A DNA stretch of 5,811 nt from positions 7,469 to 13,279 of the forward strand of contig PKZC01000098.1 of NCBI GenBank assembly GCA_003132905.1. Direction: 5' to 3'. The DNA is from Bryobacterales bacterium. Lineage in GTDB: Bacteria; Acidobacteriota; Terriglobia; Bryobacterales; Bryobacteraceae. Positions 3 to 5,644 of the stretch are shown here, piece after piece. Each line of letters starts with the position of its first letter. The stretch's first letter is position 1. Below the pieces are notes generated by a model. The model ran no database searches, was not told the DNA's origin, and saw nothing but the letters and a program-made list of their open reading frames with translations. Both the position numbers and the translations under genes were made by a program.

Positions 3-392
3 TCTGGCGACTTCACGCCACTGCTCGCTAAGCATTCCAAGAATTTCAACTTGATCCACTCACTCGACATCGGCGTTTCGGAGATGCAGCGAAACTTCGA
101 TCCGATGACGAAGCAGGTTACGCGTTGGCGCGATTCCCAACTCACGGACGTTTCGGCGAAGCTCATTATCTACCAGGCTTTCATCGAAGGCGCGATAGAC
201 CTTCCGAAGCACCTCGCCGCTCCCGTCCACAACCTGTATTTCAATCCGGAGCACGAGGAGTTTGCACCAAGAACGATGTGGAGCCTGTCGAACGCCTTCA
301 CGTCCGCGCTCAAACAACTGGACCCGGTGCCGCAGTTTCGGGCTACCGCAAGGCTCGGGCCATTCTTAGAGGCTCGCGATATAACCTCTTAA
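3..392 (+). CDS. DUF932-type phage/plasmid protein, C-terminal part (5' end outside window)
   Basis: The reading frame is open from the left edge to TAA at 390-392 and gives 129 residues of a protein that starts upstream of the window. A TTG at 51 could be read as a start, but the frame is coding-like before it, so I treat it as internal. The tail combines a helix-rich segment (LIIYQAFIEGAID), a short hydrophobic strand before FNPEHEEF, and a motif TMWSLSNAFTSALKQLDP followed by a Q...TARLGPFLE ending. This resembles the C-terminal region of the DUF932 family (phage/plasmid-like proteins), where a W/YxLxNAxT motif precedes the end. DUF932 proteins have no established biochemical function and are common on plasmids, prophages and integrative elements. 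The gene is followed 38 bp later by an intrinsic terminator, so it is the last gene of its transcript. Family recognition is by pattern only; that this is a real coding end is more certain than the family name. Confidence 0.7.
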   Translation, partial: SGDFTPLLAKHSKNFNLIHSLDIGVSEMQRNFDPMTKQVTRWRDSQLTDVSAKLIIYQAFIEGAIDLPKHLAAPVHNLYFNPEHEEFAPRTMWSLSNAFTSALKQLDPVPQFRATARLGPFLEARDITS

Positions 393-1451: not shown

Positions 1452-1484
1452 GAGGCGCAGTCAGGGCGGCGGGGAGTAGATGCG

Positions 1485-3296
1485 ATGACGAACTCGAAGG
1501 ATTCGCAAAAAGGCCGGCGCTCCGAGAAACTGTGGCTGCCTAGCTTGCTCCTGCTTCTGGGTCAGTTCCTCACAATCACTCCCGCTCTCCTGATCGTTTT
1601 CGCCGACGAACAGCAAAGAGGGGCCTCCGATGGATATGTGGCCCTTCTGGATGAACTCGACAAACTTTCTTCCGCCATCGCCGAGCTGGAGACCGTTCCG
1701 GCGCAGCAAAGCCCCGCAGCGTGGCAGCAACGATATTCCGATTATCGCAGCCAGCTGAACCGCACTCTTGGAAGTTCCGCATTGACGCCCGAGATTCGTG
1801 AAACTCTGTCTCGAGTCGATTCCACTGTCGAGCGGATGGCAAAGGCCGCGTCTGACCTGGCGGCTTTCCATCAGGCAGGCAAGACGCCGCCACAAACCCA
1901 GGTCATAGCGGACGCGTTCCGCCAGGATGGCCGGGCTGTCCGCTCCGAGCTATCGAACGCGGAACGCTCAGTTCGCCTCCAGCTATCCACAACCGGCCAC
2001 AGCCTCACGCAACTGAACACTTATCTCAAGGCCTTGGTCGGGGGAGCCTGCCTGTTGGCATTTGGAGTGGTGTTTCTGGTCCGCAAGTTTCGCATCGATG
2101 CCGCCGTGCAAAGAAAGTTACAAGAAGAACTACGAACCATTAACGAAGAGGTCGTTGCAGCGCTCGCCGCCGCTCGGTCCGAATCCGAGGCTAGGAATCA
2201 ATTTCTGGCGCATGTCGGCAATTTAATGTGGACACCGTTGAATTCGATTGTTGCGGGGACGGGAGAACTTCTCCAAACGGAGCTCACTACCCGTCAGCGC
2301 GAATGCGCCCAAACCAGCCGTGAGCTGGCGGAATCGCTCACCAGAGTAGCAGGCCAGGTGGCCGACTATTCGAAGATGGAGTCCGGCGGGCTCGATCTGC
2401 AATCCGTCACATTCGAGCCGGCCGGAATCGTCGCCGATGTTCTGCAGACTTTCAGTCCGCCAGTGGAGCGCAAAGGGCTGAAACTCAAAAGCGCCATCTC
2501 GAAGGATTTGCCGCGCGCCGTAAAAGGCGATCCGGAACGATTTCGCCAGGTGCTGGTCAACCTGATGAGCAACGCTGTTCGGTTTACCCAGAAGGGCGAG
2601 ATCTGGTTGCGTGCGGAGGAAGTGAGCGGACCCGAGGGCAGGACGAGCCTGCGATTCGAAGTCAAAGATACAGGCATCGGGCTGAGTGAAAAAGCTCGCG
2701 CCCATATATTTCAGCCGTTCAGCCAGGTAGGTAAATCGGCAACGGGCCAAAACCAGGGAATCGGTCTGAGCCTGGCGATTTCGAAGAAGCTGGTGGAATT
2801 GATGGGAGGCAAACTCGACGTTTCGAGCGAGCCGGCCCGCGGCAGCACTTTCTGTTTCACCGCGGTATTTGAAAGCGTTCACGCCACTCCAGAACGCCGG
2901 CCTGAACCGAGCGAAGCCACCGCGGCCGCAGTACCCGCTCACGTGCCGGTCAACTCATCGCCACAGAATGGAAAGAAAGGGCGCGAAAGAAGAACGGAGC
3001 CCCGCCATGGGATCAACTACCCGACGCTGCTCAGATCCGAACAGGCCGGCATCGGGATTATCCGAATACTGGATGTGTCTGCGTCGGGCTTGCGCGTATC
3101 GGTTCCTTTTCGCCTGGGGGTTCTGAGCGAAGTGGAGATTCGCATCGAGGGTGCGTCCGTGGTTGGCACCGTTCGGAACTGCACTTGTATTGCAGCGAAC
3201 GAGTTTCATGTTGGCATCGAGCTTCAGCCGGCGAATTCAGCGGACGAGCACTTCTTGCAGCATCTCCGTCTGTTGCGCACCGAGCGGGTCACGTAG
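1485..3296 (+). CDS. Membrane histidine-kinase-like protein with degenerate H-box and C-terminal PilZ domain
   Basis: 603 residues. ATG at 1485 is preceded by GGGGAG at 1471-1476 with an 8-base gap, which supports this start. Domains in order: membrane segment about residues 16-40; a roughly 140-residue, mostly helical extracytoplasmic sensor (about 41-180) that I cannot assign to a named family; second membrane segment about 183-199; coiled linker about 205-235; HisKA-like helix about 236-300; HATPase_c about 349-461; Pro/Ala-rich linker; PilZ about 500-590. The ATPase boxes are intact: N-box with N359 and N363, G1 as DTGIGL (395-400), F-box IFQPFSQV, and G2 as GIGLSL (425-430). PilZ carries both c-di-GMP motifs, RxxxR (R503-R507) and DxSxxG (D530-G535). 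The oddity is the H-box. FLAHVGNLMWTPLN (240-253) aligns without gaps to the usual FLANMSHEIRTPLN, so N246 replaces the phosphoacceptor His, L247 the Glu and W249 the Arg. Autophosphorylation at the normal site is therefore not expected. Likely role (inference): a membrane sensor or scaffold that binds ATP and c-di-GMP, perhaps acting on a partner kinase or on the divergently encoded pilin's pathway. No response regulator lies beside it. Confidence 0.88.
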   Translation: MTNSKDSQKGRRSEKLWLPSLLLLLGQFLTITPALLIVFADEQQRGASDGYVALLDELDKLSSAIAELETVPAQQSPAAWQQRYSDYRSQLNRTLGSSALTPEIRETLSRVDSTVERMAKAASDLAAFHQAGKTPPQTQVIADAFRQDGRAVRSELSNAERSVRLQLSTTGHSLTQLNTYLKALVGGACLLAFGVVFLVRKFRIDAAVQRKLQEELRTINEEVVAALAAARSESEARNQFLAHVGNLMWTPLNSIVAGTGELLQTELTTRQRECAQTSRELAESLTRVAGQVADYSKMESGGLDLQSVTFEPAGIVADVLQTFSPPVERKGLKLKSAISKDLPRAVKGDPERFRQVLVNLMSNAVRFTQKGEIWLRAEEVSGPEGRTSLRFEVKDTGIGLSEKARAHIFQPFSQVGKSATGQNQGIGLSLAISKKLVELMGGKLDVSSEPARGSTFCFTAVFESVHATPERRPEPSEATAAAVPAHVPVNSSPQNGKKGRERRTEPRHGINYPTLLRSEQAGIGIIRILDVSASGLRVSVPFRLGVLSEVEIRIEGASVVGTVRNCTCIAANEFHVGIELQPANSADEHFLQHLRLLRTERVT

Positions 3297-3755: not shown

Positions 3756-3760
3756 TCAAA
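3745..3760. promoter_or_regulatory. Operator-like inverted repeat TTTGA-N6-TCAAA
   Basis: TTTGA at 3745-3749 and TCAAA at 3756-3760 form a perfect 5-bp inverted repeat whose 6-base spacer is exactly the proposed -10 box. Type II antitoxins usually repress their own promoter by binding such palindromes, so a repressor here would block RNA polymerase. The site is short, so the assignment is tentative. Confidence 0.35.
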
Positions 3761-4023
3761 TGCGACCAGCATTCCAACTGAAGGATGTTCTTGCCGCACT
3801 ATTCCCTAGTATGAATCGCGCCGCTACCAAATCGAATAATCCGCGCGTCTTTGAGGAGGCGCGGGAGGCCATTATCAAGTTCACGACGTTGAGCCGCGTT
3901 TTGACGCGGGCGGAACTTGAAACACTCGAACTGCTCTTCGATAAGCGCGCCATGACGACCATCGGCAAGAGCTTGCAAGAAGCCGAACGGGGAAAGTATG
4001 AACCAATTACCAGCATCCGGTAA
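3760..4023 (+). CDS. Type II antitoxin (partner of the RelE/ParE toxin)
   Basis: 87 residues from ATG at 3760 to TAA at 4021-4023. An in-frame ATG at 3811 would give 70 residues and may be the true start, because the candidate promoter places the transcript start near 3762. Neither ATG has a Shine-Dalgarno. The assignment rests on position (directly before a RelE/ParE toxin, with no gap) and on the C-terminal end: LETLELLFDKRAMTTIGKSL then QEAERGKYEPI. This resembles the toxin-wrapping tail of Phd/YefM-type antitoxins (a 'LxxLxDxxxxxxIxxSLxxxxxG' pattern). The N-terminal half is helical and basic, but I do not see a ribbon-helix-helix, a HTH or a canonical Phd fold, so how it would bind DNA is unclear. 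Its role would be to neutralise the toxin and probably to repress the operon. Confidence 0.65.
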   Translation: MRPAFQLKDVLAALFPSMNRAATKSNNPRVFEEAREAIIKFTTLSRVLTRAELETLELLFDKRAMTTIGKSLQEAERGKYEPITSIR

Positions 4024-4317
4024 ATGGACGAGCGTTATCGCGTCTACATCACCCCATCAGCCCGCAAAGAAGTAAGACGATTTCCGAAGGGCTTGAAAGA
4101 AGCCATTCTCGAAGCAAGCGCCACGCTTGAAAAGGAACCGTTTGCCGGCGAGCGCCTTACGGGCTCGCTTCATATGCTGTACTCTTTTCACTTCACCTCT
4201 GGCGAATCTCAGTATCGGATCGCCTATAGCCTCGACCACCCTCGTCAATTGGTAATCGTGCATCTGATCCATAGCCGCGAAAACTTCTATGCGAAGTTGA
4301 AGCGGATTTTTCATTAG
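4024..4317 (+). CDS. RelE/ParE-superfamily toxin
   Basis: 97 residues from ATG at 4024, which abuts the antitoxin's TAA with no spacer, so translation is very likely coupled; the stop is TAG at 4315-4317. The sequence follows the family layout. An opening strand (YRVYITPSARKEVRRFP) leads into two helices (LKEAILEASATLEKEPFAGE). Then come the LTGSLHMLYSFHF strand, the YRIAYSLD strand, and VIVHLIHSRENFYAKL at the end, where R and Y of 'SRENFY' occupy the positions often used for RNA cleavage or target binding. Length is typical (85-100 residues). RelE-like members cut mRNA in the ribosome and ParE-like members poison DNA gyrase; sequence reading alone does not decide which. The frame is intact, so it could be functional. 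It sits among IS and integrase debris, a usual place for such modules. Confidence 0.85.
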   Translation: MDERYRVYITPSARKEVRRFPKGLKEAILEASATLEKEPFAGERLTGSLHMLYSFHFTSGESQYRIAYSLDHPRQLVIVHLIHSRENFYAKLKRIFH

Positions 4318-4460: not shown

Positions 4461-4477
4461 GTTCTAAGACCGCGTAA
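4461..4477 (+). repeat. IS630 left terminal inverted repeat
   Basis: GTTCTAAGACCGCGTAA, matching the right end at 12 of 17 positions with a shared GACCG core. It contains the transposase stop codon. Confidence 0.75.
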
Positions 4478-5135
4478 AAGAGTTCTTATCATAGCCGAAC
4501 GTGTGGCGAGCGTTTTTGCGTGTGAATTGCCAGTTGATGGTGACCTTGTGGCGATTCATGCGGCGATTCCAAGCATTTGACTCTCGCTGAAGGTGCTGGA
4601 GGCTGGGGATGCGACGCTTCCCCAGGCATTGGCGCGCGAAGAGGCCGATTTCAATCTCCGCCTGGTTGAGCCAACTGCCGTGGCGCGGTGTATAGTGCAC
4701 CGTGAATCGACCCCAGACCTCAGCGCCGACCTCGTCCCCAAGGGCATCGGTGAGTGACTTCTGGCTGTGGATATTCAGGTTATCCACAACCAGATGAATG
4801 GTTTTCGCTCCGACATAACGCAGGGCGAGTCGAAAGATCACCTTGGCGAACTCAAAGGCGGATCGGTCTGGCGTCGCGAACGTGAAATGACGGCCAACCT
4901 TGGGTTCTACAGCGCAAAATACGTTGGCCGTGCCGCATCGCTCGTACTCGCTATCTCGTTTGGCTGGTTGGCCGGGACGCGCCGGTTGCGAAGGGCGAAC
5001 CTCGGCATGGAGAGAAACCGGTTTCTCATCCAGGCAAACGACCGGCTCAGCTGGATTGTAGGGCTTCTCATATACCGCCAGGACGTCTTCCATCTTGCGG
5101 ACGTACTCGGCGTCGAGTTGAGGAATGCACCACAT
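4464..5135 (-). CDS. IS630 transposase, C-terminal DDE half (frame B)
   Basis: The catalytic half, 223 codons counted from the ATG at 5135-5133, which I read as an internal Met rather than a start since no ribosome binding site precedes it. RNase-H-like DDE domain: first Asp in VVCLDEKPVSLHAE (D36 of this frame), second in IHLVVDNLNIHS (D118), and the Glu in GSWLNQAEIEI (E160), the usual IS630 signatures in the usual order. Joined to frame A by a single +1 step at the A run (...PWREK-MWCIPQLD...), the protein would have about 374 residues, normal for the family. All three catalytic residues are present, so if the frames are joined in vivo the enzyme could be active. The stop codon lies within the IS left end. 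Confidence 0.85.
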   Translation of the reverse strand: MWCIPQLDAEYVRKMEDVLAVYEKPYNPAEPVVCLDEKPVSLHAEVRPSQPARPGQPAKRDSEYERCGTANVFCAVEPKVGRHFTFATPDRSAFEFAKVIFRLALRYVGAKTIHLVVDNLNIHSQKSLTDALGDEVGAEVWGRFTVHYTPRHGSWLNQAEIEIGLFARQCLGKRRIPSLQHLQRESNAWNRRMNRHKVTINWQFTRKNARHTFGYDKNSFTRS

Positions 5136-5589
5136 TTTTTTCCCGCCACGGCTTCAGTTCGTGGCTCTCGAGCAGGATGCGGATCGTCTCCCGGCCCACC
5201 TGCGGCGCCAGTTTCCGCTTGACCGCCTCGGTAGCGACCAACCGCACACTCCACCGCGCAATGCCCTCGGGCGGCGAACCGCACACCATGGCGATGATTC
5301 GCTGGCTCTGGCCTACGTCCAGCGTTCGCTGTTTCCCTGGCCGGGGCTTTTCGTACAGTGCCGATTCCAGCCCTTGCTCCTCATAACGCCGGGCAACTGC
5401 TCTCACCGTTTTCGCCGCCACACCCACATTGGCCGCCACCTGCGCCGCCTTCTGACCAATGTCGAGCTGGCGCAGAATCGAAGCACGCCGCAAAACACGC
5501 GCCGATTCCCGCCCCTTGGTCAGCATCCCAGCAAGCTGCCGCCGATCCTTCCTTCCCAACTGGACATGCACCCGATGATAGCTTTGCAT
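5068..5589 (-). CDS. IS630 transposase, N-terminal half (frame A)
   Basis: DNA-binding half of the transposase. I choose ATG at 5589-5587 (product begins MQSYHRVHVQLGRKDRR); an in-frame GTG at 5613 is also possible. A GGAG sits just ahead of the ATG, closer than ideal. A first helix-turn-helix (residues about 20-60: RRASILRQLDIGQKAAQVAA, then NVGVAAKTVRAVARRYEEQG) is followed by a linker, KPRPGKQRTLD. A second winged-helix-like region follows (about 75-150), ending ETIRILLESHELKPWREK. These are the HTH arrangement of IS630 proteins, which recognise the terminal repeats. After ...PWREK the frame runs on for 23 unrelated, Arg/Pro-rich codons to a stop at 5070-5068, while the true continuation is in the next frame. 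The break is at the A7 run 5141-5135. Confidence 0.8.
   Translation of the reverse strand: MQSYHRVHVQLGRKDRRQLAGMLTKGRESARVLRRASILRQLDIGQKAAQVAANVGVAAKTVRAVARRYEEQGLESALYEKPRPGKQRTLDVGQSQRIIAMVCGSPPEGIARWSVRLVATEAVKRKLAPQVGRETIRILLESHELKPWREKNVVHSSTRRRVRPQDGRRPGGI
5135..5141 (-). other. A7 run at the transposase frame junction
   Basis: On the minus strand the sequence is CGG GAA AAA AAT G in frame A. Dropping one A (or a +1 step) gives CGG GAA AAA ATG TGG, restoring the family sequence PWREK-MWCIP. A homopolymer of seven A is a known setting for transcriptional slippage or ribosomal frameshifting in IS elements, but also for simple mutation or sequencing error. Confidence 0.6.
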
Positions 5590-5644
5590 GTCTCCACTAT
5601 GCGGCCATTCCACTCGTTCAAGAAGTGACTGAAAAGGTACATCA

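Follow-up and report, generated by a model that had tools for sequence, protein, structure and literature searches.

A membrane-anchored candidate pseudo-histidine kinase with a C-terminal PilZ domain from a Bryobacterales bacterium, and the family to which it belongs

What does a histidine kinase do once the residue that receives its phosphate has been replaced? The question is raised by a 5,811-nucleotide stretch of DNA from a Bryobacterales bacterium (assembly GCA_003132905.1, contig PKZC01000098.1, positions 7,469 to 13,279; the whole stretch is hereafter called the window), in which the list of open reading frames (ORFs) contains a single long protein of 603 amino acids (aa), and for which an earlier note made from the sequence alone had described a histidine kinase with Asn in place of the phosphoacceptor His. 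Comparison of this protein with its relatives suggests that it is rather likely to be a pseudo-histidine kinase that is anchored in the membrane and works, without phosphorylation, as a receptor of cyclic di-GMP (c-di-GMP), with an ATP site that is kept in most members of its family. A degenerate acceptor motif was found across that family, the dimerization and histidine phosphotransfer (DHp) domain was shortened in a third of it, the ATP site was mostly kept and the motif of the C-terminal PilZ domain was kept. The protein descends from a histidine kinase and probably signals by a change of shape and not by phosphate transfer; the loss of enzymatic activity, the binding of c-di-GMP, the direction of signalling and the presence of a partner are what we infer.

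1485..3296, + strand: coding sequence of 603 aa, comprising a transmembrane (TM) helix, a periplasmic helical domain, a second TM helix, a juxtamembrane helix, a degenerate HisKA (DHp) domain, a HATPase_c domain and a PilZ domain (ORF list, Pfam, AlphaFold2 model, hydropathy)

Three Pfam domains, HisKA, HATPase_c and PilZ, were matched above cut-off and in that order, and the succession of the first two identifies the protein as a histidine kinase by descent. The HisKA match was marginal (PF00512, residues 236-301, 27.9 bits against a cut-off of 26.9) and the HATPase_c match strong (residues 348-459, 94.3 bits, cut-off 26.4); among 39 members of the family scanned at E <= 0.01, HisKA was detected in 25 and HATPase_c in all 39. 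When residues 231-465 were submitted to structure comparison, the transmitter fold was seen to be kept over that span, the matches including active kinases at similar Z.

The family itself was defined by a protein search, which returned 75 clear members, namely the window's own protein (P0001) and 74 others of 43-74% identity, after which the score fell from 369 to 205 bits and ordinary and hybrid kinases followed. These counts refer to proteins clustered at 90% and found by shared words, with no more than the best 120 taken per search from about 8,000 scored candidates and with lengths between 0.55 and 1.75 times that of the query. Two members (P0054 and P0072) carried the source name Bryobacteraceae bacterium (Acidobacteriota, Terriglobia). 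Counts of the H-box (n=74) include the window's own protein and exclude P0075, which is without that region, while the tree and all counts of 72 exclude P0073 and P0074 as well; P0063 (423 aa) was retained. A second search, for which an alignment of 39 sequences was the query, added seven fragments (P0121-P0127) that enter no count, and its first protein from outside the family was P0128 (365 bits), which has two canonical kinase cores and was followed by a drop to 276 bits.

The acceptor motif carries most of the argument. The H-box of the 603-aa protein reads FLAHVGNLMWTPLN, as against FLANMSHEIRTPLN in HisKA kinases, and places Asn246 at the phosphoacceptor position.

2190..2387, + strand: degenerate HisKA/DHp domain, residues 236-301 (PF00512)
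2202..2243, + strand: H-box FLAHVGNLMWTPLN, residues 240-253 (ORF translation, alignment)
2211..2213, + strand: codon of His243, proposed displaced acceptor (His in 55/74)
2220..2222, + strand: codon of Asn246, phosphoacceptor position (alignment)

The gap-free alignment reported in the earlier note was reproduced both with HMMER (against GacS, 7z8n) and with MAFFT against a control set of 45 canonical kinases (P0076-P0120), all 45 of which have His aligned with 246, Glu with 247 and Thr with 250. An acidic residue next to the phosphoacceptor His is needed for autophosphorylation. The window's protein has N246-L247 and thus neither the His nor its acidic neighbour expected of an enzyme, and no member of the 74 has an acid at 247 (one alignment gap, in P0064). 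A normal H-box in homologues, which the same note had named as evidence that would speak against it, was looked for, and the His-acid pair occurred in 0/74 members as against His-Glu in 45/45 canonical kinases. It is therefore well supported, as far as comparison of sequences can tell, that the transmitter would no longer autophosphorylate.

Position 246 was also among the most variable of the protein. Its 75 rows comprise H 28, R 19, N 10, Q 6, S 4, G 3, E 3, A 1 and one gap, and its rate of 2.32 lies at the 91st percentile of the protein, above 63 of the 66 DHp sites. By parsimony on one midpoint-rooted consensus tree of 72 sequences, at least 26 changes were required at this site, and at least 14 when it was scored as His versus not-His. 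This variety does not stem from misalignment of members with a shortened DHp, because the 48 members with a full-length DHp vary too (R 18, H 11, N 9, G 3, E 3, S 2, Q 2). The long non-phosphorylating evolution that had been proposed is borne out by this freedom to vary, together with the missing His-acid pair. Conservation of Asn246 itself was found within the window's clade (8/8; P0001-P0004 and P0006-P0009) and did not extend to the family, the sister sequence P0005 having His and two of the ten Asn rows falling outside the clade. The Asn is thus old in this clade, yet it is only one option among several at a position no longer under constraint. A recent mutation or a read error was ruled out by the Asn in all eight clade members and by the lack of a His-acid pair in all 74.

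A second idea in the note was that the phosphate is carried by His243, one turn before position 246. In its favour, His is the most frequent residue at 243 (55/74), but Y, N, Q, K, S or G stand there in 19/74, with Tyr in P0004, P0006 and P0007, each 71-72% identical to the window's protein. Neither His243 nor His246 is present in 17/74 members, those three among them, 8/72 have no His anywhere in residues 229-301, and the acid at 247 is missing throughout. Since 17 members lack both His residues and eight lack any in this region, a displaced acceptor was ruled out as the mechanism of the whole family, and the idea is given almost no weight here.

A C-terminal PilZ domain, absent from the earlier note, is the main addition of the present analysis. 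It was matched at residues 501-593 (PF07238) with 23.4 and 25.6 bits in two scans (cut-off 22.5), and at E <= 0.01 in 37 of the 39 scanned members. The c-di-GMP motif of PilZ domains consists of RxxxR and (D/N)xSxxG (PMC10333796), and the window's protein has the domain and both halves of the motif, as is characteristic of PilZ c-di-GMP receptors.

2985..3263, + strand: PilZ domain, residues 501-593 (PF07238)
2991..3005, + strand: PilZ RxxxR motif, R503 and R507 (71/72 members; rate at the 3rd percentile)
3072..3089, + strand: PilZ DxSxxG motif, D530, S532 and G535 (71/72 members; rates at the 0-6th percentile)

RxxxR and DxSxxG were intact together in 71/72 members, the sole failure being the short P0063, and the motif sites, at the 0-6th rate percentile, are among the most constrained of the protein. 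From this motif the PilZ domain is predicted to bind c-di-GMP. When PDB sequences were searched for relatives of the PilZ part, the only hits were four weak ones, all leucine-rich-repeat receptor kinases, and they were taken as chance.

The ATP-binding domain of the window's protein is not quite as complete as had been thought. The earlier description of its boxes as intact was correct for N, G1 and F and failed for G2, which reads GIGLSL as against GTGLGL, with Ser429 at a position where Gly is found in 64 of the 73 members that have a residue there.

2526..2861, + strand: HATPase_c domain, residues 348-459 (Pfam)
2571..2573, + strand: N-box Asn363 (69/72 members)
2667..2681, + strand: G1 box DTGIG, residues 395-399 (D395 in 68/72, G397 in 72/72)
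2709..2720, + strand: F box FQPF, residues 409-412 (F409 in 66/72)
2757..2771, + strand: G2 box GIGLS, residues 425-429, Ser429 replacing Gly (alignment)

All the ATP-site residues considered (Asn of the N box, Asp and Gly of G1, Gly of G2) are present in the window's protein, and that they have been kept holds for most members (n=72: N363 69, D395 68, G397 72, G399 69, G427 70). Five have lost some of them: N363, D395 and G399 are gone from P0065, P0069 and P0071, D395 and G427 from P0058, and G427 from P0045. F409 is missing or changed in 6/72, the whole F box being absent from P0050, P0059 and P0060. ATP may serve the family as a conformational switch, a question on which the five members that have lost some of these residues bear.

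Further loss was seen in the DHp domain, which is full length in the window's protein (66 residues) and shortened to 20-50 residues in 25/74 members, with at least six changes between the two states on the 72-sequence tree. Structure prediction drew on alignments of part of the family (39 and 33 of its 75 proteins). The AlphaFold2 model of the 603-aa protein had a mean predicted local distance difference test (pLDDT) of 79.8 and a predicted template modelling score (pTM) of 0.46; in that of P0064 (mean pLDDT 75.2, pTM 0.35) the long helix stops at residue 244, at the remnant of the H-box, and is followed by a low-confidence stretch to 258 and then by the ATP-binding domain, no second DHp helix being predicted. 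His246 was commoner with a shortened DHp (17/24) than with a full-length one (11/48), and its retention is therefore no sign of an intact transmitter.

These deletions also bear on a proposal that the DHp pairs with that of an active paralogous kinase, biasing the balance of its kinase and phosphatase activities, with the PilZ domain adding a dependence on c-di-GMP. Precedents exist in RocA, whose interaction with CovS does not need its His246 (PMC7028121), and in the ChrS pseudokinase, which forms heterodimers with HrrS (PMC9491836), and the full-length DHp of the window's protein would permit such pairing. Against it, in-register pairing with a normal kinase would be hard for the 25/74 members with a shortened DHp, the DHp of P0064 is almost absent, and no partner gene was seen within the window. 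The heterodimer put forward in the earlier note is thus weakened for the family, because a shortened DHp is so frequent, though members with a full-length DHp, the window's among them, may still form one; as an account of the protein, modulation of a partner kinase is considered unlikely.

The deletions bear equally on a reading in which a core resembling that of DivL binds a phosphorylated response regulator without phosphorylating it. The DHp is the docking surface of response regulators, and here it is shortened in 25/74 members and not slow-evolving (mean rate 0.86), while the kept transmitter fold is common to active kinases at similar Z; such a reader seems improbable.

The distribution of evolutionary rates places the constraint elsewhere. 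The slow parts are the two TM helices, the juxtamembrane helix and PilZ (mean 0.47), and the fast parts are the periplasmic part, the DHp and the catalytic and ATP-binding (CA) domain (mean 0.84).

1471..1476, + strand: probable ribosome-binding site GGGGAG, 8 bases 5' of the ATG (read from the sequence)
1533..1604, + strand: first TM helix, about residues 17-40, slow-evolving (model, mean rate 0.37, hydropathy)
1605..2015, + strand: periplasmic domain, made up of helices alone in the model, about residues 41-177 (faster-evolving, mean rate 1.09; location deduced from the two TM helices)
2016..2084, + strand: second TM helix, about residues 178-200 (mean rate 0.30)
2085..2189, + strand: juxtamembrane helix, residues 201-235, conserved and coiled-coil-like (mean rate 0.46, conservation with period 3.6)

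Hydropathy peaks were centred at residues 27-32 and 188-193, and the family consensus likewise begins MTNSK. Over residues 205-262 the rates follow a period of 3.6, as in a helix with one conserved face, and C189 and R200 are invariant across the 39 aligned members. The TM helices are among the slowest parts of the protein, and because they evolve more slowly than the periplasmic domain between them, a membrane partner is hinted at. A search with the sensor (P0011 residues 1-235) found 64 proteins among the 7,997 scored candidates that shared most words with it, every one of them a family member; it thus turned up no active kinase that shares the sensor, at a sensitivity that may miss more distant sensors.

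Losses of this kind might also be expected of a functionless family on its way to extinction, for which the ATP-site changes in five members and the DHp deletions would speak, as would P0126 and P0127, apparently two halves of one member. These two fragments correspond to the N-terminal and C-terminal halves of a member present as separate proteins, both with a longest contig of 735,992 bases, which suggests a natural split or a frameshift between the DHp and the ATP-binding domain. Set against decay are the lengths of 525-655 aa in 70/75 members (the search takes only 0.55-1.75 times the query length; the shorter ones are P0063 and P0072-P0075), the unaltered PilZ motif in 71/72 and the slow TM and juxtamembrane sites, so that a decaying gene is regarded as very improbable.

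Several observations weigh against a non-phosphorylating c-di-GMP receptor. His is retained at 246 in 28/74 members, which may conceivably be unusual kinases working without the neighbouring acid, and the H-box is not wholly released, because its sites 243, 245, 247, 250 and 251 are middling in rate (47th-56th percentile). The CA and DHp domains are alike in mean rate (0.84 and 0.86), and the P0064 model, with its pTM of 0.35, has a pLDDT under 50 at residues 244-258. As for PilZ, the window's own match exceeds the cut-off by just 0.9-3.1 bits, 2/39 scanned members have no match at E <= 0.01, and c-di-GMP binding is predicted by reliance on a motif.

In the arrangement that we favour, that of a membrane-anchored c-di-GMP receptor, the periplasmic helical domain and the two conserved TM helices would provide input to the juxtamembrane coiled coil, which is itself conserved, what was once the DHp hairpin would be reduced to a coiled-coil or dimer spacer, and the ATP-binding domain would be retained as a structural or allosteric module. 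With c-di-GMP bound by the C-terminal PilZ domain, an envelope signal, and perhaps ATP, would be combined with the second messenger and the result relayed by conformation to a partner, the former kinase core serving as the transmitter of that conformation. It is quite plausible that the family is in the course of discarding its transmitter, with an acceptor site that varies freely, a DHp shortened to near absence in several lineages and a PilZ domain taking over, which would leave a transmembrane receptor of c-di-GMP and maybe also a reader of ATP.

The window's protein keeps the fold and has lost the acceptor motif, and it may belong with the pseudo-histidine kinases of the DivL, RocA and RetS type, which in addition act through a partner. 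RetS differs from it in retaining the His of its H-box and, to our knowledge, in having no C-terminal PilZ domain. As in the window's protein, the HisKA/HATPase core of Caulobacter DivL has its acceptor position otherwise occupied, by Tyr550, and no kinase or phosphatase activity was measured for it (PMC4211667); DivL, however, has PAS sensor domains (PMC4211667), in place of which are found here a TM helical sensor, a C-terminal PilZ domain and a variable acceptor site. RocA of Streptococcus is likewise a pseudokinase that works on or with a partner kinase, but has six TM segments, a CA domain in last position and a dispensable, retained His246 (PMC7028121), and the ChrS pseudokinase of Corynebacterium, which also pairs with a partner kinase, originated from a frameshift in laboratory evolution (PMC9491836). 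ShkA and SgmT are histidine kinase proteins that bind or are regulated by c-di-GMP (PMC7010744, PMC3509222), but ShkA binds it through a pseudo-receiver (PMC7010744) and SgmT keeps the His336 of its H-box and ends in a GGDEF domain (PMC3509222), no PilZ domain being seen for either. The proposed transmembrane receptor would be similar in logic to LapD (PMC5231407). Among the titles listed in the literature searches, with few subscription journals covered, none described a PilZ-bearing pseudo-histidine kinase, and a search for phrases of this kind matched no paper; four papers do contain PilZ, HATPase_c and HisKA together.

Elsewhere in the window, positions 3-392 (+ strand) encode the C-terminal portion of a protein that resembles DUF932 weakly, under cut-off. 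Positions 3760-4317 (+ strand) hold a small ORF of 87 aa without a Pfam match; the gene directly after it encodes a ParE-like toxin (PF15781, E 9e-15), and the two probably form a type II toxin-antitoxin pair. On the minus strand, at 4464-5613, an IS630-family transposase (NF033545) extends across two frames, 5071-5613 and 4467-5135, which overlap; taken by itself, its N-terminal part is under the family cut-off. This is a frameshifted or frameshift-expressed insertion sequence. No Rfam family was detected in the window at gathering thresholds. A scan of genome contigs, for which six short peptides from the 603-aa protein were the query, found only three distant loci (25-40% identity), and a scan of viral contigs gave no match. 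Among plasmids, no record reached 80% coverage of the query, and identity was 24.5-40.8% in the 20 records listed out of 5,000 or more.

The pseudo-histidine kinases encountered in published work are isolated cases. Here 75 known proteins make up a natural family, in which graded losses of the acceptor motif, the DHp helices, the F box and, in a few members, the ATP site stand against a PilZ motif conserved across the family. Many of its members are named signal transduction histidine kinase in one source (JGI); counts of kinases would therefore include non-kinases, and a likely class of c-di-GMP receptors would go unnoticed. The family allows one to ask which parts of a transmitter stay needed once phosphate transfer is gone.
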